Assembly: GCA_033816765.1 (NCBI GenBank)
Contig: CM066296.1
Coordinates: 1,302,001-1,366,000 of the forward strand
Origin: Nothopassalora personata
Lineage: Eukaryota; Ascomycota; Dothideomycetes; Mycosphaerellales; Mycosphaerellaceae
Direction of reading: 5' to 3'
Length of the DNA stretch: 64,000 nucleotides
The translations under genes were made by a program, and so were the position numbers. The notes under the pieces are model-generated. The model was given only the letters and a program-made list of their open reading frames with translations. It did not search any database and was not told the origin of the DNA. Shown piece by piece: positions 19,113 to 60,123 of this stretch. Position 1 is the first letter of the stretch. Each line of letters begins with the position of its first letter.

Positions 19113-20678
19113 TCACCACATCTGCACGCTCACCCTGTCCGTAACGTCCTGGAAATGCCCTCCGACATGTACGATCGGCTCATAGCGCACAAAGGCCCCT
19201 GCTCTCGTGATCCTCGCAATGCCAGGTGTGCCGAAGGTCCAGCTCAAGCTAGCAGCTGCGAAGAACTGCACCTCCTCTTCAGTCTCAAGATCGAAGTTGG
19301 TCATCATGAAGCCATGGTTTGAAATGGTACATTTTGAGCCCTGGTGGAGACCCAATTTAGAAAGTTCGGTGGGGAGCTGGGCTTGAATCTCGTCTACAGT
19401 CTGGAGGCCTTGACCGGAGAAGGATTTGAGCCAGTAGCTCACTGCTCGCACTGCTTCGTCAGTGGGTAGAGCGGAGGTGTGCAGAGGAACCATATCATGC
19501 AACTGGAGACCAGAGTCTGTCAAGTTACCTGGCTGCCCAGCACCCCATGAGTGCCAACGCAAGACTGGGATCAAACCCCATTCTGGATCTGGGAGTGGAC
19601 GCCACCTGCAATCAGCACTCGCGTTCCTTGGGTTTGAGGTGTAGATGAATGAGAAGTCGCCATTCTTCTCACAAAGTCGCATGGCTTCTTCTGTAAGAAA
19701 CACAACGCTTTCCTCGTCGGATATTTGCCATGAAGCCTCATTGGTTAGAACACCGAAGAGCGCGAACAGCCTGTTGCTGGGCCGATCAGGATCACAATGT
19801 CGACCGGCAATGCCTGTCAGACAAGTCAAAGCAGACATGCCCAGATACTCGCCGACTTGCCAATCCGCCAGTGTATCTTCAAGTGTACAGATGCCTGGAT
19901 AGCGGCGAGCTAACTCCCAGCTTGAAATTTGAGAATTCTGCTCCACGTCCCTTAGCGCCTTGCCAGTCGTGCTGAAGAGGTCATTGCCGTCCATATGCAT
20001 TGGTGTCTCGAGATCGAAAGTCGTGAACATGATCTTGCGCGCATTGACGATCTCCTGGAACGTCCATACACTTCGGATCCATGGTTCTCGCTCGATGGTG
20101 GATACGTCGGTGTCTCTTGCTCTGCCTCGCACACTGCGCCAGACGGCGAAGAAGGTTGCTTGCTCGAGCAGCACGATGCAGGAGACCGCTCGGGCGTAGA
20201 TCAAGCCCATGCTCTCCAGTGTAGCAATTCGCTCTGGTCCTGAGGGAGGCACGCATATCGCGTCGATCCAGTAAGCCTGGACGTAGGAGTCCGCATTGGC
20301 TCTGATAGCATCTTCTAGCGCCCCACGGGTGCGCGAGGAAATCTCCTCTGAGAAGCCGAACATATTCTGACTTCGCTCTGTGCCCCATGTGTAGGATATT
20401 GTGTGATAGCCAGCAACCAAATGAGAGCTCGTATCCAGCGGCTCCGACACTTTCCATGCTCGTTCATCCAGTACTTCTACCGCTCCGGCCCAGTCTGCTT
20501 CTGCTGGAACGATGACACGGAGCTCCATAGTTGGGTGCGATGCCAAAATGTGCTCGACGTGGGCCAGCAGTGTCAAGTACGACACATTAGGACTCGTCCC
20601 AGCCGCACGAGCTGTGGCCGCGCAAGAATGGCAAATGTCGTGGCACATCTCGTCTACCATTACATTCGTCCATGCCAT
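19113..20678 (-). CDS. HET-domain (heterokaryon incompatibility) protein
   Basis: A 521-residue intronless ORF. The HET core is clear: YHTISYTWGTERS (about 92-104), YWIDAICVPPSGPERIATL (about 136-155) followed by MGLIYARAVSCIVLL, and WIRSVWTFQEIVNARK (about 200-215). The rest is a fungal HET-associated region without ankyrin, WD40 or NACHT repeats. HET domains trigger cell death on non-self recognition after hyphal fusion; some also act as NLR-like immune effectors. It lies at the edge of the transposon-rich region. Its start codon is 6 bp after the stop of the upstream 2EXR gene and in the same reading frame (see findings). Codon use is like that of its neighbours. Confidence 0.85.
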   Translation of the reverse strand: MAWTNVMVDEMCHDICHSCAATARAAGTSPNVSYLTLLAHVEHILASHPTMELRVIVPAEADWAGAVEVLDERAWKVSEPLDTSSHLVAGYHTISYTWGTERSQNMFGFSEEISSRTRGALEDAIRANADSYVQAYWIDAICVPPSGPERIATLESMGLIYARAVSCIVLLEQATFFAVWRSVRGRARDTDVSTIEREPWIRSVWTFQEIVNARKIMFTTFDLETPMHMDGNDLFSTTGKALRDVEQNSQISSWELARRYPGICTLEDTLADWQVGEYLGMSALTCLTGIAGRHCDPDRPSNRLFALFGVLTNEASWQISDEESVVFLTEEAMRLCEKNGDFSFIYTSNPRNASADCRWRPLPDPEWGLIPVLRWHSWGAGQPGNLTDSGLQLHDMVPLHTSALPTDEAVRAVSYWLKSFSGQGLQTVDEIQAQLPTELSKLGLHQGSKCTISNHGFMMTNFDLETEEEVQFFAAASLSWTFGTPGIARITRAGAFVRYEPIVHVGGHFQDVTDRVSVQMW

Positions 20679-20684
20679 AATAAC

Positions 20685-21980
20685 TCAGGTCATTTCAGCT
20701 TCGGATGACTCTGGCGACAGTCCATCGAGCAGGTCATCAGGAGGTTGCTCGGCCTCGTTCGTACTTTCAGTCTCAGGAACCTCCCAACACAGTTCGCCGC
20801 CAGCTTGCTTATACTCAATGGCTACATCAATCGCACTCTCGAGCGACTTACTCACCAGGAAGCGCTCATACGCTTGCGAATATTCTGCTCGCTGCTGCCT
20901 GCGATCTTCATTATCGTCCTTGTCGCCGTCATATCCAGTGATGACTTGAACCCGCTTGAGGTCATGCGATTGAAAGTAGCCAGCCCAGCCGCGGCTGTAC
21001 TGATCTGTTCGCTTTCTGTATGATATCGCGTGCCGGGTCTGGTGGAGAACTTGTAGCTTTGGAAATGCACGCACTACCATCTTGAAGTGACCCGAAGTCT
21101 CACAGTCGGACTGCACATGCACTCGTTCGATAGCTCGCCTCTGACGTAGAGTCAATAGCTTGGCAAACTCCAGGCCGCGACGTGGCGATGAAACGTCAAA
21201 TTCGTATAGTGAATACGGCAGAAGGGATGCCTCGTGGTACACCTGCCTGCATGTTTGCAGGACGGCCAGGTTCAGAGCTGAGTCGGCATGCACCTTCTTG
21301 AGACCTTGCGAAGGGGAACCATAGATTTCTGTAAGCCTGTTTCGTTGTCCTGGAAGATCGCATTTGCTGCAAGTATCTTCATAGTGATAGTCCATGTCCT
21401 GTCCAGTGCAGATTGGCACGTACTTCTGCTCATGCATTTCGAAGGTTGGAATGGTGCACATGGTATGTCGCTGCGCGTACGCCCTTAGCTTACGGCGAGA
21501 AGGCCCGTACTCGCCCACGCCGATATCCAATAACGCATTTGCAGGAGTATCAATCGCAGCGAGTGGCTTCTTACTTAGACTGTATGCCGTCTCCCACTCG
21601 TCTGGATAGCGACAAACCGAGTACGTGGACTTCTGATACCGCACATAAGGTTCACGCTTAGGATGTCCATCATCGTCGATGCTGGTGACTCGAGTCAAGG
21701 GACCACTCCAGTGAAGCGAGATATTATCTGTGGCCGTGCACTTTCTCTGCGTTAAGTGAATGGTGCCATGTCCAAAGATGTACTCGTAGATGACATTGCG
21801 GATCTCGGGCGGAAGGGAGAGCAGTCTTGATTCTTTCTGATGCTGGAAGGCACTTGTATCCATAGGCTTTGCTGCTCTTAGTGCTTGCCTTCGCTCCTTG
21901 TGCCGTGCTTCAGCGAGGCGGAACTGTTCCTTCGTCGCGCCATCGAAGCGTTCATCCCATATTCTTGTTCGCCACGGCAT
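20685..21980 (-). CDS. 2EXR/DUF7730-type protein
   Basis: A 431-residue intronless ORF with LSLPPEIRNVIYEYIFGHG at about 53-71, the 2EXR motif, and the family core ALNLAVLQTCRQVYHEASLLPYS at about 230-255. The C-terminal part ends in an acidic tail. It is the full-length paralogue of the shortened gene at 5254-6087. Such proteins form large families in Dothideomycetes with unknown function; the N-terminal motif resembles an F-box. It is the last intact gene before the RIP-mutated region, and its start codon lies only about 100 bases from the boundary. Confidence 0.75.
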   Translation of the reverse strand: MPWRTRIWDERFDGATKEQFRLAEARHKERRQALRAAKPMDTSAFQHQKESRLLSLPPEIRNVIYEYIFGHGTIHLTQRKCTATDNISLHWSGPLTRVTSIDDDGHPKREPYVRYQKSTYSVCRYPDEWETAYSLSKKPLAAIDTPANALLDIGVGEYGPSRRKLRAYAQRHTMCTIPTFEMHEQKYVPICTGQDMDYHYEDTCSKCDLPGQRNRLTEIYGSPSQGLKKVHADSALNLAVLQTCRQVYHEASLLPYSLYEFDVSSPRRGLEFAKLLTLRQRRAIERVHVQSDCETSGHFKMVVRAFPKLQVLHQTRHAISYRKRTDQYSRGWAGYFQSHDLKRVQVITGYDGDKDDNEDRRQQRAEYSQAYERFLVSKSLESAIDVAIEYKQAGGELCWEVPETESTNEAEQPPDDLLDGLSPESSEAEMT

Positions 21981-27538: not shown

Positions 27539-27734
27539 TATTAAGGGATGTCGTAATATATAGTACGCCTACGACCTACTAGTCGTAGATAAACTAATTC
27601 TTGCCTTTTATTTAAGACGCATTGCGCGTCGCAAGGTGTACGTATGCGTGTCACGTACGGCTTAGTAGCCGGTCGCGACCGCATGTTACATGTAAGGCTA
27701 CATATAAGGGTTAGCTACTAGGCTGCCCCTTACA
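27539..27734 (-). repeat. C1 3' LTR (left)
   Basis: 196 bp. On the minus strand it starts TGTAAGGGGCAGCC and ends CCCTTAATA (the terminal CA mutated to TA). By eye it differs from the right LTR at 13 sites; 11 are CA or TG versus TA. Confidence 0.92.
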
Positions 27735-28040
27735 ATTGCCTCCCCTCCCGTACGAGCTGTCCTTAGCTCGCTAGTTACTACGTAGAGGCTCCTACGTACT
27801 TCTAGAACTATAGTTACTATACGGCCTATATACGGGTTACGTACGTGTCGTTATATAGGTATAGGTAAGTAAGGCTTAGTTACTATACCGACGTAGCTAG
27901 TTAGGGGCATAAAACTCTAGCCTAACCTAGTTCTATTTCGTAGTACGTTCCCTAGCGTACTACCTTCGTCGCACTACTACTACGTACCCGCACCGTACCC
28001 GTACCGTAAGCGCCTCGCTAGTATTATTATCATTATCATT

Positions 28041-28975
28041 ATGTCGGACGGGCCCTCCTCGCCGCTATTCTCTAGCCGCTCCGCCTCCTCTAGTAGTACT
28101 AGTAGCGATAGTACTACTAGCCCCTTAGAAGACGAGCGCCGCTAGGCGGCTCTAGTGCGTAACGTACCTAGAACGCCTAGTAGTCGCAAGCGACTAGCAT
28201 TACCCTCGTAGCTACTAACGCCCTCGCCCGCTACTAAGCTCTCGTAGCGGATTAATATATACATACGGTGCCTCCTATACTTCGTTAGGGGTAAGTCTCT
28301 ACGCGCGCCGCCTACGATTCGTATACTAACTACTTACTAGACGAAGCCGATAACTGTAATAGTATTACTACCGGCGAGCTCCTAAGGAAGTATAGCCGCT
28401 ATAGGCGTAATAGACATAGCTACGTGCCTAATACTAGCTACGCTATCGCCTCGCTAGTAAGTCGCCTACGCGCCGCGCGCTCCTAGCGCGACTTCCTTAC
28501 GGCCATAATGGGCTAGGCGCCTATAGACCTCTAGTAGTAGGAGCTAGTAGAGTAGATCCGCCTATGTACCTAGCTAGGTAACGACATTACGGAGGTAAGT
28601 CGCTACTTCGCTCCTACGAGTCGACTACTACTCGCGTACGGGGGCTCTAGTACGTCTCCTATGCTTCGGCTAACCCTTTCTATAGGCTATTAGGCAATTT
28701 AATGCCTATAAGCATAAGCGTGCCGGGGAAACCCGTATACGTACTTCCACCGCCGCTACTACTACCGCCGCCCCCGCCGCCGAAGCCCTCGCGCTCTAGT
28801 AGGAGTAGAACCGCGCCCTTAATAGGCTGTTCGAACTCGGCCGCGCCGTAAGTCGCATGTTCCTCGTATACGTGTACCCTACTAACCGTAGTCCTAGTTC
28901 CTATAGGCGTAGAACATTAACACTACCGCCGCCGACTAGGCGTTCCTACCTAAGTTACTACGTAATAACAACTAA
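28041..28975 (+). pseudogene. Spliced antisense gene of element C1, RIP-broken
   Basis: On the strand opposite gag-pol, exons 28041-28290, 28341-28594, 28686-28847 and 28892-28975 join into one 249-codon frame from ATG to TAA. Intron 1 is GTAAGT...TACTAAC...CTAG (50 nt), intron 2 GTAAGT...GGCTAAC...TATAG (91 nt), intron 3 GTAAGT...TACTAAC...CGTAG (44 nt). The frame has 17 internal stops, all TAG, as expected from Gln CAG codons changed by RIP; there is no TAA or TGA inside. The predicted protein has a Ser-rich start (MSDGPSSPLFSSRSASSSST), a central part with EADNCNSITTGELLRKYSRY and NTSYAIASLVSRLRAAR, an Ala/Thr-rich linker and a final helical part with NRALNRLFELGRA. I do not recognise it. 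The pol stop (29118) lies 142 bp beyond, tail to tail. A weak TATA-like CATAAAAC is at 27908. Confidence 0.75.
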
Positions 28976-29117
28976 GGCGCTCGCCTTACACGCTACTCGC
29001 GGGCTCCTCGCCTACTACTACTCTACGTAGCCCCTAGTAGGCGCGCTACTCTTTAGCTTTTATTTTGTTTATAGTTAAGAAAAGTTTTATTTATACTCTA
29101 GTACTCCTATACTAGTC

Positions 29118-32100
29118 TTATTTGCTTCTCCTTAACGCCTTATAGTCGGCTACTATACGATCCGCATTCGCGAGGCCCTCCGCCGGTTCCTAGCTATTAT
29201 ACTCCTCTAGCTAGTCCTTCTACTAGACTAGATACTACAGCTTACCCTTACGCTTACGCCTATCTAGTACTGCCTCTACCTTATACTCTCCGTCCTTATT
29301 AGCTAGAGGGGTAACGGGTCCATCCTTATCGCTACCGATATACGGCTCGAGGAGAGAGACATAGAAGACGTTATAGAGCCTTAAGTCGGCTAGTAGCGCT
29401 AGGCGGTACGCCTACGAACCGATAGCGTCCGTAATGCGGTATAGGCCGATGAACTTCAGGCCTATCTTCTTCTTTAGTACTGCTAACTTAAGGTTCTTCG
29501 TTAATAATAGAACTAAGTTACCTACGCGGTAGGTCTTAGCTTAGTAGGTCTTATTATAGTAGCGAGCCTAGCTTTCTACTATAGCCTTCTATCGCTCCTC
29601 GAGTATAGCGCGTAGTTTTCGTATACGACTCGTAGCTATTACCGCTACTAGTACTTCCCCCCCTAGGTCTCGTCTCGAGATCTAGTTAGTGTAGGGGCAA
29701 TCTTAGGTCGCTAACCGTGCGCTATCTCGAACGGACTCATCCGTAGTGTTAGGTAGATGCTGTTATTAGCTACGAATTTAGTAACTACAAGCCACTTAGC
29801 CCACTTAGTTTAATTATTACTATAGTAATAACGAAGGTATTATTCGAGGGTTTAGTTTACCCTCTTAGTTTAGCCGTTAGTCTAAGGGTGAAAGGCCGTG
29901 GATAGCTTACGCTTTACACGCGCCTCGAAGTAGAAGTTACTCTAAAACTAACTAGTAAAGACCGGACCTCGGTCGCTTACTATGCCTAACGGGACACTAT
30001 AGTGTCGTACGACTTCGTCTCGTAGGAGCCTCGTAAGTTCTACGGCTATGTAAGTCTTCGTCGTCGGGATGTATAAGCTCATTTTTAAGTAGCGATCGAC
30101 TATTACTAGGATCGTATTATACACGTAACCGGCTCGCGTACTTAGAGGTAGGTCCGTAATAAAATCCATAGTGATTTCCTACTACGGCCGCTCCGGTCTA
30201 GGAAGCAGTTATAGCCTACTATAGGGTCGATAGCGTTTAGCCTTCGAACCCTAGTAGGTTCTATAGGCTTAGACGTATTGCTTTACGTCCGTACTAAGTG
30301 AGTCCTACTAATAATTACGTCGTAACAGCTCTTTAATCTTAGTCCTTCTAAAGTGACCCGCGAGGACGTCGTCGTAGTACATACGAATTAGATGCGACCT
30401 AATTGCGTAATCCCTAGGTACTACAATCGCGTCTCCGTAGTACATAAGGTCATCCTTTATATACTATCCCTTAGCGTCCCTCGCGCTTAGCGCCTACGCT
30501 AAGTATGCGATACACTAGTCGTCTTACTACTACGCGATCTTTATTAAGAGTAGGATTAACTCACCCGTCGAGCTATAAGCTTAACCCTATATTACTATAG
30601 CGTATACTACTACTAGTAACGACGGCTTGTCTTAATAGGGAAGGTTACCTCTCCGTACTACTATTACCGCGCCTATGTCGCCCTACATCGCCTCGTAGGT
30701 AGTAAGTACGCGCTTTACCGTCGGCTTGCTTATCCCTTCTAGAGACTCCTTCTAGAAAGACAGCTTACTTTATAAGGTAGGTAGTAAGTTCGAAGTTCGT
30801 TACGTTATAGCTACGTAGTTACTACGTCTCGAAGGCGCGTCGGCTAGGTTAGTCTTACCCGGCCGATACTCTACTATAAAATTAAAAGACTATAGGAACG
30901 TGGCCTATCGAGCTTACCGTCCATTTAGCTACTTTACTATTATAAAGCCCTATAGGTTAGCGTAGTCGACTAGTACTCGCACCGTATACGTAGCGCCCTC
31001 TAAGTATAGCCTCTAATGCTTAAAAGCCTTAACTACTGTAAGTAGCTCCTAATCGTGCGTCTCGTAGTTACACTCGGCTAGTATTATCTTACGTAAATAG
31101 AAGGCAATTAGATGCTACTTAGTCCTAAATAGCTAAGAGATAATACCTATAATCGCAAAACCTAAGGCATCCGTCTTAACCCTCGTACATAACGAAGGAT
31201 CGAAGTGCCTTAGGATAGGTGCTCCGAGGAACCTAGCTTTTAGTCGTTAGAACGCTTACTCCTCGTAAGCGGACTACATAAGAGGCCCTTGCTTCTTACT
31301 ATTCTTACATCCCTTTAGTAGGTCTATTAATAGCTTCGCAATCCTCGAGTACCCTTCGATAAAGCGCCTATAGAAGTTATAGAATCCTAGGAAGGATTAA
31401 ACCTTATAAAAACTCGTAGGCCTAGGCTATTCCTCGATTACGGCTACCCTACTCCTATCTATCGATACGCCTACGACGCTTACGATAAATCCTAGGAACT
31501 CGGTATTCTCCTAGAAGAAGCGATACTTCTTAGGGTTTACGAATAGAGTAAACTTCCGTAGCCTCGTAAGCACTTCGCGTACGGCTCGCACGTGTACCTT
31601 ACGCGTCTCGCTATAGATAAGGATATTATCTAGGTAGACTACGTAAATGTTATTAACTAAGCCGGTTAGCGCCTTATTAATATACCCTTAAAAGGTTGCT
31701 AGTGCGTTAGTTAACCCGAACGGTATTACTAGGTACTCGTAGTGTCCGTATCGCGTACGAAACATAGTCTTCCACTTATCGCCTCGCTTAATAGGGATAC
31801 GATAGTAGGCGTCCTTTAAATCGATTATAGTAAAGAACCTAGAACCTAACAGCCTATCTAGCGTCTCGCTAATTAGGGGTAGGGGGTATCAGTTCTTTAC
31901 TATAATCTTATTTAAGCCTCTATAGTCCACATAGAGCCTAAGGGTGCCGTCTTTCTTTAGTACGAACAAGATAGGCGCACCCGCCTCGCTTACGGACCGC
32001 CTAATCCACCCCTTCTCCATTGCTTACGTAAGGTACTCCTTTAAGGCCTCTAACTTAGTTAAGGACTAGTAGTATAGCGGCTTAAAAGGGGGTTTCTTTC

Positions 32101-34080
32101 CTTTAACGAGATCAATCGTATACTTAACCCCGTCGGGTATCTTACGCTTTGCCTACTTATTAGGTACGTATACATCTCGGAAGTCTATAAATTCTTTAGG
32201 CTACGAGGGGCCCTCTCCTTCGGGTACTACTATAGTAATAGCCCGAACACTTATCGCATAAACCTACTTTAAGCTCTCGAGATCCCTAAGGAACTCGCGT
32301 GCGTTACGCTACTAAATCGTAGGCGTCTCTATACCGTAGTACTACTAGTCCTTATAATCGCTCTTTACGATCCGATTACGGTACCTCTAGGGTCTACCTA
32401 AAATTACTAATGGCCTACCTATAGGTACCGCGTAGTAGATAGCATTACTTACGCGCTCTACTCCCGCGTTATTAGCGAGTCGTAGCCGAACCGTAAAGGC
32501 GCCGTAGCAATACCCTAGGTTATACGTATACGACTCTAACTTCGGTAGCCTTACCCTATTAATAGGTTACATTTAATATCGGAGTATATACTTATACGAC
32601 ACTAGGCTAAGATCCGTATAGTTATCTAGGAGAAACGTAGCCTCGCGAAAGCCTTACGAGTCTCGACTACGCCTCGTAAGTAACGCGCTAGACACGTATC
32701 TACTCGCCTTAAAGGGTCGACTTTAGGAAAACTCGGACTTAGGAGCGACCCACTTATAGTCCTCTACCTTTTCCCTAGTCGCTGCGCTAGATACACATCT
32801 ACTCGCCTTAAAGGGTCGACTTTAGGAAAACTCGGACTTAGGAGCGACCTACTTATAGTCCTCTACCTTTTCCCTAGTCGCTACGCTAGATACACATCTA
32901 CTCGCCTTAAAGGGTCGACTTTAGGAAAACTCGGACTTAGGAGCGACCTACTTCTAGTCCTCTACCTTTTCCCTTAGTCGCTACCCTTCTTAGTTAGAGC
33001 CTTCGTAGCGTCTACCCTACGAACCGCTTACGCGTTACGGTCCTTCTATAGGTGCCTATTCGGGCAATCCGTCTTAATGTAACCCTTCTTATAGCATCTA
33101 TAGCACTCCGCTTTAGTCCTATCGAAGGTTATAGACGATCCGCCGGCGTCCCGCTAGTAACTCGCACCCGGGTCGCGCGACGCCTAACTATGCTTCTACT
33201 ACTTCGAGCTACGATCGCTTCGCCCTTAGTCGCCCTTAGTCTCTCGCCTACGGCGACCATGCTACCCGCGGTCGTACCCTCCGCTACTACGCTCCGTACT
33301 TTTAATACGCGAAGCTAGGATTACTAGTTCCTCTCTAGTTATTAGGATGTTATAAAACTTAACGATTGCGGACCGTAGGCTAGGCGTAAGCTTAGCGAGT
33401 ATGTGTCGTACGCGTTACGCCTCCGTATAGTCCCCTAACTAATCCTCTATAATATCTAGCTTAGTCGTAAACTAACGCACTATCTAGTTATCCTTCTATT
33501 TTACCGCCTTATACTCTAATATTACGTTAAGTACGCGGTTTATAGGGTTACCGTATGCGTCTCGATAGAACTCCTTAAAGTCCTAGTATATATACCCTTT
33601 AAGGTTAAGGACGCTATAGTTAGCGTACTATCGCTCACTTGCCTCTCCGCTTAGGTACATAACCCTATATAGGACCTTTAACTCGTTCGTCGCATACGTG
33701 CCGCCTAAGAGGGTAAAGATAAGAGAGAGCTCCCTTAGGAATACCCGTACTTTCTTAATCGAGTCCCCTCTAAAAGGCGTAGGTTCTTTAAGACGTAAAC
33801 GTGTCGTATGCGATGCGACCGCGCCTCGAGCTACGATATTATCGTTAGTTACTATAGATAGAGGAGGGGGAGGGGGAGTAGGGGATAGTTCTCCGCCGGA
33901 TTCGCCCTAAGGGTCCGCCGGCGGCACGCTTACGTCCCGTAAGATCTCTAACTGTTTAATCTCCCTCTATATCCCCTTCTCCTTAACCTCTACCCGAAGG
34001 GCATCCCTCCTTACGACTAAGGCTACACGCCTCGCTTATTACTAGGCCCTAGGGCTTAGGGGAGCCGTAGGCGTAGCGCT
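29118..34080 (-). pseudogene. C1 gag-pol with chromodomain, RIP-broken
   Basis: Minus-strand polyprotein remnant ending at a TAA (29118-29120). Order: gag, zinc knuckle, 33-residue repeats, protease (FLLDNYTDLSLVS near 32620, VILGRP near 32410), RT with VIPFG (about 31720) and YLDN instead of YLDD (about 31640), RNase H, integrase and chromodomain with YLV-KD-LEEYNS-EP. Stops are overwhelmingly TAG at Trp and Gln positions. The longest uninterrupted piece is the integrase segment 29948-30169. Confidence 0.88.
32688..32984 (-). repeat. Three tandem 99-bp (33-codon) units in C1 gag-pol
   Basis: Units begin at 32688, 32787 and 32886, with exact 99-bp spacing. On the minus strand each encodes a 33-residue unit containing EKVEDYKWVAPKSEFS. 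It lies between the zinc knuckle and the protease; the length keeps frame. At least one full unit and most of another are present in copy C2 before the window ends. Confidence 0.9.
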
Positions 34081-34141
34081 ACTGTCGTCGCGTTCGGACT
34101 CTATAGCGTGTATAGATTGTAACGAAGGGAAGAATTAGAAC

Positions 34142-34337
34142 TGTTAAGGGATGTCGTAATGTATAGTACGCCTACGACCTACTAGTCGTAGATGAACTAA
34201 TTCTTACCTTTTATTTAAGACGCATTACGCGTCGTAAGGTGTACGTATGCGTGGAACGTGCGGCTTAGTAGCCGGTCGCGACCGCATGTTACATATAAGG
34301 CTATATGTAAGGGTTAGCTACTAGGCTGCCCCTTATA
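34142..34337 (-). repeat. C1 5' LTR (right)
   Basis: 196 bp, paired with 27539-27734. On the minus strand it ends CCCTTAACA; its start is TATAAGG, from TGTAAGG. Confidence 0.92.
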
Positions 34338-34342: not shown

Positions 34343-37300
34343 ACTAACTAATTAGTTCTTAGCCTTAATCCTACTAAACTGTAAAATTTCGGCTATAGAA
34401 AGGTTATAAGGCCTAACCTATAGCTTCTTAGATTCCGGTTTAGGATACGATCCCCTTTCGTTAACTCCTATAGGTAGTACGTCTTCGTCGGCGATAGGCT
34501 CGATCTCGTTCAAATTACTACTGTCTTCGCTATTAGCGACGCTATTAGCGACTTCTCCCTCCCCTATTACGAGATCGATCCTATTATCTAGGCCTAGTAC
34601 TCCTATATTATCCGGACGAAGCTCTAGAACTAGCTTAAGGTTTTCTCGTGCCTAAACACCCTTTATTAGCGTACTATTAAGTTCCTTAAGAATATAGGTA
34701 CTAAACTCCCTAGAGACACTAGACACCCGATATAGACCTTACTATCGGTAACCGATCTTACGTAAGAAGTCATCCTTATATAGCTTGTCGAATCTTATAA
34801 TAAGGTCGCCCTTCTAGAAACTAATAGAGTTAACATTCCGGTAAGAATTAAAGTAGTCCTTACTAAGTTCTCTTAGTCGCTTCCTTCGAGTATATAGCTC
34901 TTCTAAACTAAGGTCTCGAGCCTAGAGTTAACGCGCACGTATAGTAAGTAGGTCCTTAGTCGTTCTTACCGATCCTTATTAGTAATTCGCCTACGTCGGG
35001 TACTTAACCTTAATTAGTAGAATCGTGCGATAGCTATATAGGACCTAAGCTAGCGTTATTCTAGTAGTACGATAGGTCGTAGTCCTATTAGCCTATAACA
35101 TAGCGGGTACCTATTATTCCTATCCGCGGTATATGTTCCTTATAAGCTTTACTAACGCTATAAGAATAGGACGGTATCTAGCCTCGACCGGAGCATTAGA
35201 CTACGGATAGTACGGTAATATTCGGATCCTTCAAACACTAAGCCCTACGAGTAACCGCTTAACCTTAGCCGTATAAACCGTAGCGTTATTAAGCATAATT
35301 TCAGTATAGTAGCCGTACCTATAGAAGACATCTTCGTATAGAAACTTAGTAACCGTCTTAGAGCTAGGAGGTGCCCTCGTTACTCTAGCCTCGATCTAGT
35401 TGCTAAGTGCTTCGCGCGTAACTAGGAGGTATCTATTTTTATGTACCTAGACGGGGTCCGAGTACTACTTCTTACTAATAACCTAAGGGCCCAATAAGTG
35501 AAGCTTACTAGCGCGCTAGTTACCTTCGCGAAACCTATAGGGAGCATAACTTTGAACCTACGTAGAGACATCGGCGAAGCACCCGTCCTAGTAATACCGA
35601 TCGGAAATAAGGTTATATACGACCTTAGCGCTACGGTAACCGTGTCTCTTATAGCACTCTATAACGATCTCCTTCTAAGCCTTATTATCGTTAATTACAA
35701 GTTGTAACGGTACTCCTCGGCGCTTCTAGAAGAATAGCAATTAGTCCCGGATAAAGAAATTGACGCTTTTCTTTACTAGCCGCCGGTACTTAGTACGGGT
35801 AATACTATCGGGCCGGGTCCTAGTTTCTATAACCTAAGTAAGCTACTAAGAGCCCTTAGAGTATCGGTCCCCGAGATGTCGTGTTTTCTAGATTTTAACT
35901 AGATAGGTGTCGACCGGCTCCGGGTACCCAAATAGCTTATTATTAATTATCCGGTCGACTTCGTCTTTATTAGCTTCCCTAGGTTCCTAAGGTGTAGAGG
36001 GCCTACGAGATAGGGCATCTAGGCTAGTATATCTAGTCCCCGTAACGTGCTTTACTTCGAACGTAAATAACCTAATCTATACAACCTACCGGGCTATTAC
36101 CGAGTTTAGCAGGTCCGAAGCCGGCCGGTTAAGCTACTATATAAGTGTCTTAGTATTAACCTTAAGGATAAAATTAACGCTAGTAATATATCTCTAGATC
36201 TTCTTAAGCCCCATAAGGACCCTAAGGCATTCCCGCTTACTAGTATTATATCTAGATTCTAACGCGTTCTAGATTCCGCTCTTATACCGCACCGGGTAAC
36301 GCTATCGGGTACTGTCTATTAATTCTTAAGAAACGATACATCTCTATCTAGTACCGCTAGTATTAACTAAGACAAAGATGGACCTAGCACTAGGTAAGTA
36401 GTAGAGGGTAACTAAGGCTAGAGTCTACATAAGATATCTAGTAACCTCTTCTTTTAAGAACTGCTTATTTTCTATCTAGGTGAACTCGGCGTCCTTCTTT
36501 AGTAGCTTATACATTAGTCGAGCGATAATAACGAACTAGGGAATCTATATCCGGAAGTACATATATAGCCCTATATAGGTGCGGACCTCCTTAATATAGG
36601 TAGGCGTAGGCTAATCTAGGATCTTAGCTACAATCTTTAGGTTAGGATAGCGACTATCCGGGCTAGTAACGTACCTAACAATCTTAAGCTTTTCGTATAA
36701 CTATTAGGATTTACCTCTAGCAACTACCGTACTAGCTCTTTCTAGGTTAGTAAGAACTAGATCTAGGGAAACGATGTAGTTAACGACCTATTTCCTTAAC
36801 CTAGGCTCTACTTCGGCATTCCTATAGTCCTTAGTTAGTCCCTTAATACCGATGTTATCGAGAAACGGCTTTGCTCGATACGAGATATAATTAAGTAGAA
36901 TCTTTGTTACTATACGCACGAACTAAGTAACCGAATTAGTAGCCCCTTAAGGTAGAGTCGTGTTGCGTACTAGGCCAAGAGGGGTTATAAAGGCTATTAA
37001 GTCCCGGTAGGACTTATCTAAAGTGATCTAATCATAACCTAAAAATAGGTCCATAAGTGAAGCGACTCGGTAACCGGCAAAATCCTCTAAGAAGCTATCC
37101 GTGTCCGGTGGAATGTTAGCATCGCGCATAGTAACCTCATTTAGGAGTATAGCTAAGTTAATTAACCGATATAGCACATCGCTTCTAGAGGTATTAACCT
37201 TCTTTACGACTAGGAACTAGCTATTAGAATATGCCCCTTATAAGTATTCTAGGATGTTGTTCTTAATCCGGGCTCTAATTATGCGCTTAACAATTACCCT

Positions 37301-38700
37301 AAGACTTGGGTGTAGCCGGATAGGGCGTGCCTACTATAGCCTATAAGGGACCGTGTTAATCTTCTAAGGTAGCACAACGTCGTACCTAATTTGCCTCATG
37401 TAACTAAAATCCCAAGTAAGGACTACCTCCCGGTTATAGAGCATCTCATCGAATAAGGCCCTTTCTATTAGTAATAGCTTAATGCTAACCTTAATTAAGG
37501 TAAGTCGTTCTAGAGTGATTCGGCTACCTCGCTTAATACTTAAGAATTTCTTAGTTAAGTACTTCCTATCGAACGGTCCTTATCCTTTAGGTATCTTAGA
37601 TTCTAGGTATAGTACCCTACGCTTCTATTCTATATCTCTCTTAACTCGTGATTCTAGGCGTTCGTGAACGCTCGCGTCTACTAGCTTCTTCTTGTCCGCC
37701 TTACGCTTATACATCGTAAAGACCTACGGCATCCTAATATTAGCTATATGTTAGCCTACTTATTGCTTTCGTGCCTAAGCATTCAATGTAGACTGCCTTA
37801 GGATCTCGGAAGGCCAATCCCCTTAAACTGAATAAACGTTAGTAATAGAATCTCCCTTAAACGCGCCTATTCCAATTTCTATAACTCGTTCCTTTACTCT
37901 AGCAGTCCTAAGCAATCCTAATAAGTGAGCTAAATAGTTACTAGGCGTTAGAGCCTTACCGGGTTCCTATAGATGCGTCGTGTCTTCCTATAGATACGTC
38001 GTGTCGTAGTCGTATCCGTTTTCCTTACTATAGCTATTTACCGGTCCCGGGACCGGTAAATTAAAGTCCGAGGTTTTTCCGAGATAGTGCGAGAACCTTA
38101 CTAATTTTGTCAAATCCGGCTTTAGCAAATCGGTAGGTTAAGCGCCGTAACTTAACCTACCCTTCTATTTCCCGACGCTTTTAACAGTTCTTAAAGGGTC
38201 TTATACCTATCCGAGCTAACTAGGGTAGTAAACATAACACTTTCACCTTTACGGCTAGTAATAGTCTCCTCCTATAAACTATTATCGCAGTTACGGGTAG
38301 TGAGTCGCACCTTACGGGCCTACGGACGTCCTAGGATTGTTAGTAAGTTTAGATCCGAGGAGATAAACATGTCTATTTAGTAGTGAACCCTAAATACCTA
38401 AACATCCAAATTGCCTATAACACCTTTAAACTAGGCCCGCCCTCTAGCACCTCGAAAGGTAAGCTAAGTACTCGACATTACCGGTAACCTAAATCTATAA
38501 GCGTTCCTCTAGCCGATGATATTTACCTCGGAACCCTCGTTAATTAGGCACCTAATCTAGTTCTTGTTTATCCCGAACTCCGCTACTACCTAAGGACTAG
38601 GGACTATAGTAAAGTTATTAAGGACACTAGAGAGCCCGATTTTCTTAACGTCCTTATAGAGCTTAGTAGTAGGGACCGTACCCTTAGAGTAAAGTATAGT
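34343..38700 (-). pseudogene. Element B pol (protease, RT, RNase H, integrase), RIP-broken
   Basis: Minus-strand Gypsy polyprotein remnants in the order given for element B, with many TAG stops at former Trp/Gln positions. The second catalytic Asp of the RT box is changed to Asn (FLDN). Downstream of integrase the sequence lacks a clear chromodomain. Confidence 0.7.
38036..38061. repeat. Isolated perfect 26-bp palindrome inside element B
   Basis: Exactly the palindrome found at the right end of element A (ATTTACCGGTCCC followed by its reverse complement), here alone between the protease and RT parts of element B. The flanking bases on neither side resemble the inner part of element A's inverted repeat. 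Confidence 0.85.
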
Positions 38701-40450
38701 TAAATACACTCCGATATACTAGGCCTAACTATCTTCGCGGAAGACCTCCTTATTATACTTAGGTTCATCTTTATAGGTAACTACTTATCTAGTACGAACC
38801 TTAGGGTCCTTTCCTATAAGACGTCGTACTATAGCGAGCTTCTCCTAAATAGCGGGGGTGTTAGTAACGCGGATAAGAGGGCAGCCTTAAACTAGCGACT
38901 ATATCGAAACTAATCTTAGGCGTTCATATTAGGAAACGTTATCTAGAGGATCTAATTAATCTAGTAGATAATACCCTCTTCCTTTATAACCGGACTATTA
39001 CTAGCTAAACTATATTATCGGACGTAGTTGTTAATCCTTATAGTCTTAGCATTCTATATACGCTTCCTTTATACGAAGGGGGCGTTCACGGGACTAATAG
39101 GCATATCCTTAGGCAGTCCTTTATTAGCATCGTTCCCTAGTCTATTTACTTAGGCATTATTTCCTCTTCCTAGGGTTACCCCGGATTTAGCTAATAATTA
39201 AGTTTCGCTTATTTAAGCACTAACTTCGTTAATTATTTCAACCTCCTACTAGTTAATCTTAGCTTACCGGATCTCCTATTCTAATTGTAGGCGAACTTTC
39301 TTAGTAGCCTTAGCTCGGGCTCGTAGATCCTAGGCTAAGGACCGGGTCCTCGGGTGCGGATTCTTTAGAATGCCTACGGGTGCCTTCCCTTTCACTTTAT
39401 TAGACTATATAGGATAGGTAGATACCTCGTTAAGCTCGCCTAAGTCGATCGCCTACTCCGCTTCACTTTCTCCGAATAAGACCTAATATATCCTAGTAGC
39501 CTTCTCCGTTTAGCTAGACCGTACGTCCTAAGGGCTATACTCTATTAAATGCCTAAAGTTAGGAGGGGGCTTAGAATAATTAGGAGGCGTAACCTTAGTT
39601 ACCCTAGTATAGTCCCTACCTATCTATTACTTACGTAGTGCGGGAATCTTATACTAGTTATTAAACTCGATCGGTCTATAATGTTCTTCGAGTAGAGGGA
39701 GCATGTAGAGTAGTTTCGGTTTACTATAGTCCCTCCGAAAGTTAAACTTAGTAGGACGTAGATCGCCTTCTTTCCCTAGATACTACTAGTTATTCGGGGC
39801 GAGGTATACGTAGCCCCGGGATATTAAGGACCTTATCGCCCTACAATTACTAGCCTAATACTTCGAGCTACTACAGTTATAGTAATAACTATCTATCGCT
39901 TTAGACTGTTCGCGATTCTACGATAGGGGACGCTACATTACGTAAACCTATAGTTTAGTGTCTAGGTTAGGCCTCTCCGGTTACATAGAGCGTTAATTCT
40001 CGCTCGGGTAGAAGGCACCCGCGTCCGCGACGCGACCGCGCTAGTATGTACGTATGCTCATTTTAGCTACCTTCTAGATTAGGTTATTATTAATAACAGT
40101 CCTAGAGGTAGCCTTCTTAAGAGTGTTAATCTTAGGCTTAAGGCGCGGCATTTACTTCACGACTAAGCGGTGTAGCTAAGGTAAAGTAAGAGGGAAATCT
40201 ATATATATAGCTTTCTATCCCTCCTTACTATCTACGATACTAGTAGCTTTATCGAGAATCCTCTAAAAGTCCCTAAACTTCTTAGGTTGCTTTAGGTAAA
40301 GCCCGTAAGCCTTATAGACCGCTTTTGCGACTGCCTCTAGTAATCCCTAAAGGAGGAGGTGACTCCGGGAGCTATTATCTAAATCCTTAGGTTTAATTAG
40401 GTCACTTAAGGATATAAATAGGCGGATAAATTCCTTCACATCTTGTTCTT

Positions 40451-40860
40451 TAGTGTTACGGTCCGGATTAAGCTACGACGACACGCCTAACTATTAGCTA
40501 TAGAAATTACATACGCCGCATGAGATTACTCGCTTACTAGCGACTTAGTAATTCGAGATTACTCGCTTACTAGCGATTAAGTAATTAAGACTAAGACTAG
40601 TAATGCCTCCTTTATATTTAGGAACGCTAAAAACCCTTATGGTTTAGAGGCGTTTAACTTACTATTTAATATCACGATTTAGAATACACTATAACCTAAC
40701 CTCTACCTTACTACTGCTTAGCCTTTATAAGATAAGACAGCTACTACTTTATTACTCTCCCTTAACTTCCTATCGGCCCGAGAATAAACCCGATTAAGCT
40801 TGTCTTCTTAACTTGTAATATTATTAGGTTATACTAAACCTAATAGCTTTAAACGCCCTC
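40451..40860. other. Junction between elements B and D
   Basis: About 410 bases between minus-strand element B and plus-strand element D. It probably holds LTR or leader sequence of one or both, but I found no matching partner. It contains a 33-bp tandem duplication (separate entry). Confidence 0.4.
40522..40587. repeat. Tandem duplication, two 33-bp units
   Basis: GAGATTACTCGCTTACTAGC begins at 40522 and again at 40555; the units differ by a few RIP-type or single-base changes. Confidence 0.85.
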
Positions 40861-43449
40861 TACGATAGGAGACCGATAGAGTAAACGGGGAACACCCGCC
40901 CCTAGTAAAGCAAGTAGAGCCCGACGACCTTAGACCGCGAACGATGCTATTAATGCCTTAGCTACTTATATAGGTAACGACACCCTTAAGGTTAGTAAGC
41001 TAGAATACTACTATAGCGACCGAGACAAGTTCGACACTTAGGTCTCTTAGATAGACATGTACTTCTTATTTAACTCTATGCCTAAGAACCTTAAACCTAT
41101 CTTTACTACTACCTTTTTAAGAGGACGAGTATAGCATTAGGTTAAACTATTCCTTAGGAAATACCTAGACAGTAACGGAGAAGACAATGCCGACGGAATC
41201 TTTAGGTTATATAACTATCTTAAGTATGCTATAAAGAGCGTCTTTAGTGTCTCTAATAAGATTACTACTACCGTTCGTGTTATTTAGCATTTAACCTAGA
41301 AGACATCTACTACCGAATATGCTACTAAATTCTAGGAATACGCGCAACTTACCGATTAGGACGATGAAGTACTTTAAGTTATGTACTAAAGAGGACTAAA
41401 GGAGTAAGTTAAGGACGAGTTAATAAGGGACGGTCGGAAGATCGATAGCTTAGGCGACCTCGTTAGAGTCACGATTAATCTTAACGATAAGCTCTACGAG
41501 AGAGCTATAGAACGACGATACGACTCTAAGGTATCCGGAAAGGCTAGATATATACCGGGCTACGATAACCGTAATAGAGGCTTCTACGATAACTATAACA
41601 ATAAGCCTAGGGACAAACCGTACTACGGACTATAGCTAATAGAACTCGACGTTACTAAGAAAGGTCGTAAGATTAGGAACAGTAACGGGAATAGAGCATC
41701 CCGGAGTTCGAAAGAAACACGAACTTACTACGGATGTAGTAAACCTAGCTACCTAGTAAGGGACTACCGCGGTAAGAATATAGTACGCCGCGAACAGTTT
41801 AACATAATACAACCCCGAACTAGTAAATCTAAGAGTAGCGTTAGATCTTAAGGAGATACCGACTATACTCGGAGAGTAGGGGAGAGAGCTAGTAATAGAA
41901 GCACGACGCCTCTCCTAGACCCCTTAGAAGGACGAGGAGGATACTATAGGTAGCAAATAGTAGTTATTCTATTTAATGCGAAGAACTAACTACGATAGTT
42001 TAATATAATAATACGAAGAGTCGACTACGAGATCGAATCCGAATCTCGAAATGGTTATAGAAGCCTTTATTAGCGATTCTGTTACTAAGACTCGTGTTAA
42101 GTTTACTACGCCGCGAAATTAGGCGTAGGGTATTAGCCTTAGTAACCGAGAGGAACTCTAGGAGCGACGTATAGGTAAAACGCTACGCTCCGAGAAGTAG
42201 ACATCGACGAATCCTACTTTAATAACGATAAAAGCGATAAAGAAAACTAGGACCTAGGATAGAACGGATTATAGTTACTAGAACTATAGGAAGAAAGTTA
42301 AGAAACTACCGGGCTAGACACTATCGAAGAAGATTAGGATCCGGAAGAATTAAGCGAAGAAGATTCTTCCGAAGGAGAAGAGAGCGATACTAACGATAAT
42401 AATAAACAACTAACCTTCACGATTAATGCACCTAAGAAATTATATAATATAATCGTACACCTATAAAGAAGGCACGAGGAATTCCTATCTAAGATAGGCG
42501 AACGAAGGATGCTACACTCTATTAAGTTTAATAAGACACTCGACACCCTACGAGGTATAGCCTAGGGATACCTACTTATAGAAACAACCGAGAATCTAGT
42601 AACCGCCGTTATAGAACGACTACCGATAGGGAGCCGAATAATAAGAACCGGATATCTTATACTATTAGGAACATTTATATCAAATGAATTACGTAACGTA
42701 GTATAACACGTACGCGCACTCTACTTAGAAACGTAGAAGATCTAGGAACGTTACTAAATGTAGGTATAGATATAGAAAGGCTCGCGCTAGGTTTAAGCGG
42801 AGGCCTCGAGACACGAAGTACGACGTTCTATATACGAATAGGGAAAAGGATTAACTCCCTAGGAATAAGCGACCGAAGGGAGTTATATAACATAGAAAAG
42901 GCTTAAGCATTACTAACGATAATAGTATTTCGAACTAAGATTATCGTTAACGGGTATAAGATAGATGCTATAATAGATTCCGGAGCGAGCGGGAACTTTA
43001 CCTCCGAATTATTTATTATAAGACATAGGATCGCTACCTATAAGAAGAAAGAGGGTTATAAATTAATCGCGGTAGACGGATTATCCTTACCTAGTATAGA
43101 GCGCGAGACGATACCGCTACTACTTACTATCTAACGGTACTACGAGGAGATTATCTTAGATGTTACTAACATAGCTAGTTATAACATCGTACTAGGTATA
43201 CCTTAGTTAAGAAAGCATAATCTAGTAATCGACTAGAGAAGGGGAGTACTTACATTTAGGGAATGCGACTATATTATCGACATTTAGCCTACGTAGCGGT
43301 AGCGTTCGCTAGTAGATAAGGTAAAGAGATAGCTAAATAGGATATAGCTTACGCCGAATAGAAGGATAGAAGAACCACCTTCGACCGGGATAGACACTAG
43401 CATAGGGCCGCCGGGTTACGAAGTTACTAGAAGTAATAGAAGTAATGTA

Positions 43450-43633: not shown

Positions 43634-46600
43634 CGGTTACTCCGGTGCACCGTATTATTCATTAACCTACTATAAGTATATGCAAATGCTTCGTTATCCT
43701 CTATATTAGTCTCATTGTTCGTCGTGTCGTTATCTAGGCCCGCGCTCTACGCTTCCGTCGCTCTATCTCGGTAGCTAACTTAGCCTATATAGGATATGTT
43801 ACGCTAGCTATAACGGTAAGCGAACTCCGTAAGAGAGTCCGTTACATCGGCTATTGCTTAGGTTACTAAAGAGCTACGGGGTCCGATACTAACTTAAGTT
43901 AGTAGTGCCTTCGTAGTTACCGTGTTAAGGGAAGTATAGTATCTATTTCGCGTGTCGCTCGTACCTAGCTAGTCATCGGTTACCTTCGCAGGCGCTATGC
44001 CTAGCGGGTTATTATCTTTATACGAGCCGTTATCTTCTACTAGAAGTGTTATAGGCCCCTACGAGAGAATGTACTTACGTAGCCCTCCTATAGTTACTAG
44101 GTTAGACGTAATTATCGTAGCGCTAAGGTTTGCGCCCGCGTTATTAGATGGTACTTCCTTATTAGCTATCTATCCTAGCGGTAGTGTAAAGCCGGCTAGT
44201 CTAGGGGCCGTAGGGTAGTTATAATGGAAGTTAGCGATAGAGGCGGCTACTATTATAATTATAGTCTCTACGGGCTCCTAAGTTAGCTTATTGTCACCTA
44301 CCCACTTTACGTAGTACTTATATATCGGGATCTTTCCTCTAACTAGTGCTCGACCGGGCGGTAGGGACCTATACGAATCTACGACTTTCTCTACATGCTA
44401 CTCCTAGTACGATCTATCTTCGTTTTCTACCTCAATTAGCGGAGGTAGAGGGACGACTTACCCTATAACTAGATTATAACCTAGCCGTAGGTAATTAGCG
44501 TAGAAACCGTTATATAGATTACTTAAGGAGTCTAGTAACGCGACTCGGTACGTGTCGCGTGGTAGTACTTCCTTAATAGGATAGGGTCCTACGTACTTAT
44601 AGTCTAGCTTCTTAGATAGTCGCGTAGTGTACTAGTTCTTAGTGCTAATATACACTATGTCGCCTAGTTAGTATACTAGCGCTATAGTCCTACGCCGGTT
44701 AGCGTATTCGGCTTACGTGTCTTATGCTATCTACATAGCGTCGCGTAACGCGGCTCTTATCTCGTTTATACGAGTCCCGAAAGCGGTTACTAATTCCGCA
44801 TCTAGACGCTACTTATGTAGCATAAGCTCTAGCGGTAGTATAACTTCTATATTAGAGTATCTCGGGTTCTTGCTAATTGTTACTATAAATAGGGAGAAAC
44901 CGGTTATCTCTAAGACGTAGTCGTTAGTAGTAAACTCTACTAATAGCAGCTAGTTAGGCCAGTTATCCTATACGTAGTTAATATACGTGCGTAGGTACTT
45001 CTCTATTCCCTTATTCGTAATCTTGCTCTATCCATTAGTCTAAGGGTAATAGCCTATTAATAGCTTACGCTTAATGCCTAGTAATTAGTAGAGTCGCTTC
45101 TAGAATGCGGAAAGCTATTAGAGTCCTCTATCTATAACGATCGACTTTAGTAGACTATAGCGGCTAAACACGTACTTAAGGTAGATAAACGCAATGTACT
45201 CCGCAGTTATATTTAAGACTAGGATTAGATGCCGCTCCTTACTTAGGCGATCCGTTACCGTAAGAATGTTCTTATACTTTTGTCTATCGGTACTATAGTA
45301 GCCTTCGGGTAGTTCGACTACGAAGTCTATCGCGATGTCGTCCTATGTGTCGAATGGTACTAGTAACGGGGCTAGTAACCCGTGTTCGGTATCCTATACC
45401 GGGTTTACATTCGTATAAGTCGTGCATCCTTTATAGAACTCGCGGATGAAGCGGGTCATACCTAGCTAGATATAGTAGCGCTTTAGTAAGGTGTTAGTCT
45501 TAGTCTTACCTAGATGGCCTACTACGGGAGCGTCGTGGAAATGCTTTACAATCCGTACGTAGACTATGTTCTCTTCGTCATCCTCCGGTAGCTCTAGGAC
45601 GTATAGGCTATAGCCTCCTTCTCTATTCTTAACGTAGATCATGCCTTCGATGGATATAGCCAGTTTCGGGTTAATCTTATAACGATGGAGCATTTTAACC
45701 TTGTCTCCGGCTACTAGCTACTACAGTGCCTCTTATAGCTCTTATTGTTTATACAATTTGCGGATGTCGCGTTATAGGTCTTCGTCTACGACACCTGTTA
45801 CTTCGGACGCTACGAGATAAAGAACTCTACTAGCTAATAGCTTTAGTATAAAGAGTTCGGGCCCTAGGAGCACTCGGTTTTACTAAGTGTACCGTAGGTC
45901 GTTCTCTCCCTCTCCCTTACGTATTATATCTTACGAGCGCCGTGTAAGGCTGTTGGGTTTACCTCCTTAGACACCTAGTCGATAGATAATCTTAAAGTGG
46001 AACTATAATAGGAACTCTACCTACCGTACTTAGCGTCTATTAAGCTCCTTCGTTATTATAAAGTACTCGAGGTTCTTATAATCTAAGTAGACTAGCACCG
46101 GTTTACCGCTTAGGTTAGCGAGGAAGTTCTCGTAATCGCTATCTACGCAATTAATGTCGCCCGCTACTAACTCTAGCCGCTATTCCTCGAAGGCCTTAAC
46201 TATAGCTAGGAGCTCCTTATCGTAGATATCGTAGTTATACTCTTAGGGCGACATCTTCTTCGATAGGTAGGCCACCGGTCTCAAGATACTATTATAACGC
46301 TAGGAGAGTACTACTACGGTAACGAAATCTAAAGCGTCGGTCTCGAGAACCGTCTCTAGTCTATACTAAAAAACTGCTAGTATCTCTCCTTCCGCGTCCG
46401 TAAATGCTTTCTTAAGCCCGTCGAACGCTACTTAACACTCTAGCGTCCATTGCTATAGTACGTCTTTCTTAGTAAGGCGGGTAAGTAGTAACGTTATCTT
46501 ACTATAGTTCTTAATAAATCGCCGGTAGAACCTAGCGAAGCCGTTAAATGCTAACACGTCGGTCACGTTACGAGGAGTCTCCTACTCCTACACTACTCTA

Positions 46601-49600: not shown

Positions 49601-49640
49601 TACTTAACTTATCGGATAAGTCTCCTCCGCTAGGCTGCCT
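43634..49640 (-). pseudogene. Element E pol and gag C-terminal part, RIP-broken
   Basis: Minus-strand frame remnants from the zinc-knuckle-free gag tail (Ser/Asp/Lys rich, about 49640-49420) through protease, RT, RNase H, integrase and chromodomain to a C-terminal extension ending near the polypurine tract. Open pieces such as 45466-45693 and 48151-48420 are uninterrupted fragments of it. Confidence 0.8.
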
Positions 49641-49652
49641 ACTAGCCCGATC

Positions 49653-50413
49653 GTCGTCCTATAGAGAGCGCCTTCACGCGGCGGACGACGTAAGTATCTT
49701 CGTTACGACGAAGAGAAACTAAGACTCTCTCTCTCGAAAAATACAAGCCTACTCGACTCGAAACAAGAAAAGACAGGTCGGACGAACCGAACGAACGAGA
49801 TACGCTCAAAATCTACAAACAAGAACTCCGGAACTGCGAGAAGGGAAAGCGACGTACATAGCGTACACGTCGCTCGAACAACGAAGGCGCTGTCTACCTG
49901 TCGTCCCGGCAAACCACGTAAACTGCCGGCTGGAACCAAGAGAGGCGTTTAGGGGCGCAAACCACGTATACTGCACGGCTGGAACCAAGAGAGGCCGAGG
50001 GGGGGACGACAGCGAGGCCACTGCGACCGAGGAGCTACACTCGAGACCGGAGAACGCGACTGGATTGAAACAGAGGCAACGGGTGTTTCTTGGGATTTTG
50101 CTCGGTGCGTACGGGTACGGCCGGCTTGGCTTTTTAAAACAAGAACGAGACACGGGCGCAAAACTTGTCTCGCCCGGGGCAAGGCGACAAACCGCAATTC
50201 TCGACAAGACACGACTACCGGGTACGCGCGTACTACGCCGCAATATATTCGATTTACGGTTCGAATAGCGAGCGTTGCTCGCATCTTTTAAGGAGTTTTT
50301 ACGTCCGGGGTACGACGGGGCTTTTCTCCTTCTCTCAAATTTTGGTCTCGTTCTCGAGACCCGTGTTGCATAGTCTTTGACTCAAATAGCACGTTAATGG
50401 AATAATCAATCAA
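49653..50413. mobile_element. Non-RIP-mutated insertion in element E gag
   Basis: Between about 49690 and 50410 the sequence abruptly regains CAG, CTG, TGG and CAA trinucleotides, unlike DNA on both sides. The gag reading frame (LRRRVGRELSPPKDKDRAS) ends here and resumes with DDDRASRQPSGG. A 12-bp direct repeat ACTAGCCCGATC lies at 49641-49652 and 50414-50425 and could be a target duplication. Inside is a near-duplicate (CAAACCACGTAAACTGC / CAAACCACGTATACTGC, about 46 bp apart). Minus-strand frames of 111 and 145 codons exist but resemble no known protein. No terminal repeats were recognised. Confidence 0.55.
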
Positions 50414-50425
50414 ACTAGCCCGATC

Positions 50426-51700: not shown

Positions 51701-51722
51701 GGAAAAGAAGGGTCTAATAAAG

Positions 51723-51883
51723 TGTAAGGGCACCTACTTAGGTAGTACGAAGTTGTTAGACAAGGTATCTAAGAGGAGCGCGAGGTGCGCGAAGTAGATA
51801 TATAAGCCGAGGCACGCGGGTCGGCCCGGGCCCGGTCACGTGACGCGCCACGTTCACTCGTCGTGCGGCTATGGGCCGTTATA
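51723..51883 (-). repeat. Element E 5' LTR (right)
   Basis: 161 bp, TGTAAGGGCACC...GGCCGTTATA. Less mutated than its partner; keeps the GC-rich palindromic block and GTCACGTGAC. Confidence 0.92.
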
Positions 51884-59188: not shown

Positions 59189-60123
59189 ATGTCTACCGTG
59201 CCCTCCTCGCCGCTATTCTCTAGCCGCTCCGCCTCCTCTAGTAGTACTAGTAGCGACAGCACTACTAACACCGTAGAAGACGAGCGCCGCTAGGCGGCTC
59301 TAGTGCGTAACGTACCTAGAACGCCTAGTAGTCGCAAGCGACTAGCATTACCCTCGTAGCTACTAACGCCCTCGCCCGCTACTAAGCTCTCGTAGCGGAT
59401 TAATATATACATACGGTGCCTCCTATACTTCGTTAGGGGTAAGTCTCTACGCGCGCCGCCTACGATTCGTATACTAACTACTTACTAGACGAAGCCGATA
59501 ACTGTAATAGTATTACTACCGGCGAGCTCCTAAGGAAGTATAGCCGCTATAGGCGTAATAGACATAGCTACGTGCCTAATACTAGCTACGCTATCGCCTC
59601 GCTAGTAAGTCGCCTACGCGCCGCGCGCTCCTAGCGCGACTTCCTTACGGCCATAATGGGCTAGGCGCCTATAGACCTCTAGTAGTAGGAGCTAGTAGAG
59701 TAGATCCGCCTATGTACCTAGCTAGGTAACGACATTACGGAGGTAAGTCGCTACTTCGCTCCTACGAGTCGACTACTACTCGCGTACGGGGGCTCTAGTA
59801 CGTCTCCTATGCTTCGGCTAACCCTTTCTATAGGCTATTAGGCAATTTAATGCCTATAAGCATAAGCGTGCCGGGGAAACCCGTATACGTACTTCCACCG
59901 CCGCTACTACTACCGCCGCCCCCGCCGCCGAAGCCCTCGCGCTCTAGTAGGAGTAGAACCGCGCCCTTAATAGGCTGTTCGAACTCGGCCGCGCCGTAAG
60001 TCGCATGTTCCTCGTATACGTGTACCCTACTAACCGTAGTCCTAGTTCCTATAGGCGTAGAACATTAACACTACCGCCGCCGACTAGGCGTTCCTACCTA
60101 AGTTACTACGTAATAACAACTAA
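59189..60123 (+). pseudogene. Spliced antisense gene of element C2, RIP-broken
   Basis: Exons 59189-59438, 59489-59742, 59834-59995 and 60040-60123, with the same splice signals as the copy at 28041. The first 30 residues differ at several positions (MSTVPSSPLF; TTNTVEDERR instead of TTSPLEDERR), including changes RIP cannot make. The rest is essentially identical, including the TAG stops. The pol stop is at 60266-60268, again tail to tail. Function unknown. Confidence 0.73.

Follow-up and report, generated by a model that had tools for sequence, protein, structure and literature searches.

An antisense, putatively spliced protein-coding gene in RIP-mutated chromodomain Gypsy elements of Nothopassalora personata

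The window analysed here, a stretch of 64,000 nucleotides from Nothopassalora personata (host genome size 54.5 Mb), falls in GC content from about 22 kb onward, and its segments 28041-28975, 29100-34100 and 34400-41000 carry the mark of RIP, with CpA/TpG depleted (observed/expected 0.20-0.28) and TpA enriched (1.7-2.6). The minus strand holds a complete chromodomain Ty3/Gypsy element, bounded by LTRs of 196 bp (5' LTR at 34142..34337, 3' LTR at 27539..27734) that differ from each other at 13 of 196 positions and are flanked by the target site duplication CCATT. When pol was tested as separate pieces, Pfam matches on this strand marked a reverse transcriptase at 31481..31960 (RVT_1, 2.3e-32), an RNase H, the zinc-binding domain of an integrase at 30251..30403 (Integrase_H2C2, 7.1e-08), its C-terminal SH3 domain at 29340..29522 (SH3_Tf2-1, 5.6e-12) and, at the end of pol, a chromodomain at 29139..29285 (Chromo, 1.8e-06). 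The integrase core (rve) gave an E of 0.0085, below its cut-off, the query piece being damaged by RIP, and the two pol pieces preceding the reverse transcriptase had no Pfam match. We presume that gag occupies 33000..34100 of the same strand, where a CCHC-like motif can be seen by eye and Pfam again gave no match. Between its LTRs the element thus has the reverse transcriptase, RNase H, integrase and C-terminal chromodomain of a fungal chromovirus. Upstream of the reverse transcriptase, at 32685-32984, stand about three head-to-tail units of about 100 bp, 96.5% alike, which would make some 33 residues recur in the polyprotein. Elsewhere in the window we noted a HET-domain gene at 19113-20678, DUF7730 in two open minus-strand frames about 15 kb apart (5254-6087 and 20685-21980) and, at 46000-58690, more damaged retroelements with RT-like YLDD, YIDD and YVDN motifs on both strands (from a regular-expression look only).

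Our main subject is a plus-strand frame of four exons and three introns that lies between the chromodomain and the 3' LTR, antisense to the element and tail to tail with pol. Exon 1 (28041..28290) begins with an ATG at 28041 and is followed by intron 1 (28291..28340, 50 nt, GTAAGT donor and TACTAAC branch site), by exon 2, the conserved core of the gene (28341..28594, 254 nt), by intron 2 (28595..28685, 91 nt, GTAAGT and CTAAC), by exon 3 (28686..28847), which continues the joined frame, by intron 3 (28848..28897, 50 nt, or 44 nt with an acceptor at 28891; GTAAGT and TACTAAC) and by exon 4 (28898..28975), which ends in TAA. Because this TAA might have arisen from CAA by mutation, the C-terminus is uncertain. 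The acceptors of all three introns are TAG in the window copy. The four-exon structure, the donors and the branch sites had been described in this form by an earlier, sequence-only reading, and the window sequence confirms them; its count of 249 codons with 17 TAG does not stand as well, for it requires splicing at 28891, where the branch A is no more than 6 nt away. We prefer the acceptor at 28897, which gives 247 codons and 16 TAG, then TAA, because its distance of 12 nt from the branch A is like that of introns 1 and 2 (11 and 12 nt) and because it is CAG in 7 of 60 copies of the window's family (family A, see below). In the interval between the 3' LTR and the start of the gene (27735..28040), where a G-rich polypurine tract of the minus strand stands beside the LTR (by eye), we would presume the antisense promoter to lie. 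The window has a second copy of the gene on the plus strand at 59189..60120, inside an element that starts at 58691 and extends past the window edge.

Could such a frame arise by chance? We looked for the longest frame tolerating TAG and introns of the form GTAAGT...CTAA...AG in 164 tiles and in 150 first-order resamples. The piece with the gene yields 289 codons with two introns (a solution that differs from the exact model first proposed), against a maximum of 204 codons for the best tile overlapping neither gene copy and of 172 for the resamples; taken together with the introns and frame being kept in a second Gypsy family, this bears out the original opinion that the frame is not a chance one. 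It had further been argued that a chance frame would not combine stops that are exclusively TAG with phase-correct introns. The TAG pattern itself can be seen (16-17 TAG), but it is weaker evidence than was claimed, because a minus-strand frame does likewise and family B has TAA: one frame read through the exons in reverse complement contains 12 TAG and no TAA, and two internal TAA occur in 10 of the 11 parsed copies of family B. The same rules applied to the opposite (minus) strand of this piece yield 268 codons, a result that speaks for an alternative in which coding belongs to the minus (sense) strand, with an additional ORF, env-like or otherwise, downstream of pol, and in which the plus frame is no more than the mirror of that ORF. 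With minus-strand frames this long, a single copy cannot decide the strand; it is the comparison between families that decides.

At the nucleotide level, 533 candidate places were found, of which the best 40 gave matches of 93-100%, and a protein search, in which the best 150 of 1238 candidates were scored, gave at least 229 matches. Every copy among the matches listed has in-frame stops, and nothing points to a present-day working of the gene. Our alignment contains 60 copies of family A, the window's included, and 18 copies of a family B, which was recognised via copies adjoining those of family A (diverged families were sought in this genome, among the best 40 or 150 places). Family B, with at least 40 close copies, is about 80% identical to A at the chromodomain end and 67-69% in the antisense-gene region, and the proteins of the two families are 52-60% identical. 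Among the A copies, 29 (the window again included) share the exon lengths of the window; these have 15-17 in-frame TAG each, and two of them also have TAA, one of these TGA as well; RIP looks close to saturation across the A copies.

The gene is present in most copies of the element, since all or part of it was found beside 37 of the 40 best pol matches (one partial and one internally deleted copy being counted). In 32 of these 40, the window's two included, the gene is in our copy lists; at the expected place beside the other eight it is nearly whole in three, partial in one and internally deleted in one, and the last three (L088, L089 and L091) gave no antisense-gene match at E 1e-5 in the 935 bp taken at that place, which suggests truncations, insertions or gene-less variants. 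In copy L087 the middle of the gene is deleted (about 28326-28852 in window terms) and both ends are kept. One might suppose that the gene is simply cargo, captured from the host or from another transposon by the common ancestor of A and B and of no use to the element, and indeed its three short introns resemble an ordinary fungal gene and its protein matches no Pfam retroelement family. However, such persistence beside pol, combined with the purifying selection in two families described below, is unlike useless cargo, and we consider this explanation very unlikely.

Conservation of the splice sites across copies was a test named in the sequence-only reading, and the gene passes it well: signals, introns and frame are kept in both A and B, with donor 3 mostly ATAAGT in B. 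The introns measure 50, 91 and 50 nt in the window copy and 53, 88 and 50 nt in B. Donor 1 is GTAAGT in 59/60 A and 16/18 B copies, and donor 2 in all 78. At donor 3, GTAAGT is found in 50 of the 59 A copies having the site (the others have GTGAGT, eight times, and GCAAGT, once) and in 3/18 B copies, the remaining 15 having ATAAGT, a probable RIP product of TpG. The acceptors are TAG or CAG in B and in all A copies with the site, save for a single GAG, found at acceptor 1. Of the A copies 50/60 keep the ATG, and B has its ATG at another place in 10 of 11 parsed copies (a count that omits six unparsed copies and one without exon 1). Exon 2 is 254 nt long in 76 of the 78 copies, while intron 2 is 88, 90, 91 or 92 nt; exon 3 is 162, 165, 150, 177 or 171 nt, two copies excepted; exon 1 is 250 nt in 52/60 A copies, and the eight odd lengths differ by threes in four cases (253 twice, 238, 271) and not by threes in the other four (249, 240, 239, 170). 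We give only modest weight to these lengths, because a trinucleotide tract upstream of the ATG also varies by threes. From the conserved sites we infer that the antisense gene is spliced.

RIP produces transitions only, and we therefore used the transversions fixed between A and B as a test of selection. The window supplied the bases of A and a single actual copy those of B, and the same changes were placed at random on like bases in 1000 permutations, over 205 codons from 28170 on (the N-terminus aligned poorly). The 117 fixed transversions change 59 codons of the spliced plus frame versus 81.2 expected (z -5.7, 0/1000), and an alternative B copy gave 58 versus 81.3 (z -6.0, 0/1000). The remaining plus frames have z of -1.6 and 1.2, and the minus frames -2.0, -2.9 and 0.3. 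The value of -2.9 (4/1000 permutations) belongs to the minus frame that runs over the exons with 12 TAG and no TAA, and could be cited in favour of a sense-strand ORF; however, this frame has its third positions in common with the plus frame, and we read its value as a shadow of the latter. Counted by codon position 1, 2 and 3 of the plus frame (205 sites each), the fixed transversions number 35, 28 and 54, the second position being the most conserved; these figures supersede a preliminary count with fewer copies (36, 22 and 47, p 0.011). The frame-by-frame transversion test thus largely refutes the idea that the sense strand codes, against which the splice signals kept in A and B also stand, and we hold it to be extremely unlikely. 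As a control, the same test at the pol end singled out pol's own minus frame (z -2.96, 3/1000, 27 transversions). Within family A there is little codon-position bias, as one would expect where copies are close and RIP dominates. The introns, with 32 fixed transversions at 188 sites versus 117 at 615 for the exons, do not evolve faster, an observation that speaks against our reading.

In our opinion these comparisons show that the protein was under purifying selection before RIP of the copies, and they support well the first reading's view of a real, intron-bearing and protein-coding antisense gene in a chromodomain Gypsy element. One could instead imagine that the selected product is an antisense non-coding RNA, which would form double-stranded RNA with the genomic RNA and silence or restrain the element, a possibility discussed for plant elements (PMC7264820) and one that the arrangement convergent with gag-pol would suit; yet neither fewer amino-acid changes in one frame nor conserved splice sites are predicted by it, and we regard it as quite improbable. 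A non-coding RNA role may exist alongside the coding role.

The protein, read with its stops omitted, has 247 residues in A (34 K+R versus 20 D+E) and 226 in B (35 K+R versus 24 D+E), and is basic in both families. In family A its N-terminus is rich in Ser and Thr, and a basic SSRKR stretch (by eye) could serve as a nuclear signal. Exon 2 alone gave a weak fold model of two helices (mean pLDDT 72.5, pTM 0.33). The protein had been said to resemble nothing recognised, and this agrees with our searches: a protein collection gave nothing at E up to 1 and 10, the window protein fell into no Pfam family, and a PDB profile search returned two hits only, with E 1 and 1.4, neither of them convincing. 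The absence from the protein collection is weak evidence, because stops and RIP changes cost exact words and the fungal coverage of this collection is uncertain. An acidic-ribosomal Pfam match in two of seven members (best E 0.038) was taken for chance.

We think that the region is very probably a true accessory gene belonging to a lineage of fungal chromoviruses, antisense, spliced and protein-coding. Its transcription would converge with that of gag-pol and start at a promoter that probably lies close to the 3' LTR; after splicing, the mRNA would encode a basic protein some 225-250 residues long, which may regulate the element's own transcription or RNA in the nucleus, a role also proposed for GENE23 of Grande. 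The introns would survive reverse transcription because they are antisense to the genomic RNA. The function is suggested by analogy, because no convincing relatives were found, and to a nuclear regulatory role, which we prefer to a purely RNA role or to passive cargo, we would give about an even chance. A more ambitious proposal would be that the protein represents a family not described before and without kinship to BRTN, and that two or more chromovirus families retained its antisense gene, with the three introns, under selection because it regulates how they spread; to this tentative idea we grant slightly less than an even chance. Introns preserved in antisense imply that the copies descend from the sense RNA, and not from the gene's own mRNA, and the very many copies in a single genome make the role of antisense accessory genes in LTR elements open to RNA mapping and comparative tests.

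Among known systems, HBZ of HTLV-1 is a spliced bZIP protein which regulates its element's own transcription or RNA. The gene described here would share with it an antisense orientation, splicing and reading from the 3' end of the element, but HBZ is retroviral and a bZIP protein, whereas Pfam gave no bZIP match in the window protein or in seven members, the exon 2 model being too weak to judge. HBZ is nuclear (PMC11963269), and in HTLV the antisense promoter is located within the 3' LTR (PMC7264820). The aORFs of plant Gypsy elements (Grande gene23, RIRE2, Retand) are similar in position, in orientation, in being present in most copies and in that their function is not known (PMC7264820, PMC11963269). 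For the antisense GENE23 protein of Grande, which is nuclear and has its own promoter, an accessory role was proposed (PMC7264820), and the antisense TRP28 proteins of Retand may bind DNA (PMC11963269). Retand is a non-chromovirus, described as nearly always TRP28-coding (PMC7264820, PMC11963269), whereas we deal with a chromovirus, and TRP28 (PF04195) is absent from the Pfam matches of seven members up to E 10, a test weakened by the RIP changes. The gene here also has three introns, and the word "intron" is absent from the main text of the two plant papers (PMC7264820, PMC11963269).

The closest parallel comes from fungi, in whose chromoviruses the sequence-only reading knew of no such gene. 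A title of 2011 by Zhao reportedly names the antisense gene brtn. In Boty-like elements of Botrytis cinerea this antisense gene lies between pol and the 3' LTR (PMC7264820), and such an element is described with gag, zinc finger, RT, IN and CHROMO domains in addition to brtn (PMC4227169), so that this part of the earlier reading has to be abandoned. Furthermore, brtn is named as the additional ORF of BcGypsy1 (PMC8365987), and a transcript from Monilinia resembles Pol and BRTN (PMC5987419). By these descriptions, an antisense gene of this kind is already known in fungi, in a chromodomain element, and ours is a new and well-supported example, not a first. Both cases involve a fungal Gypsy element with a CHROMO domain and an extra antisense gene between pol and the 3' LTR, a likeness of position, orientation and chromodomain, BRTN being known here by its description and not by its sequence or exons; the copies studied here differ in being heavily RIP-mutated. 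A literature search, outside which subscription papers mostly lay, found no paper on such introns or such selection in a fungal element. Our contribution consists of the intron structure, the finding that two families conserve it, and evidence of protein-level selection that is independent of RIP. The result is a fungal antisense retrotransposon gene in which selection on the protein is supported and spliceosomal introns are conserved.
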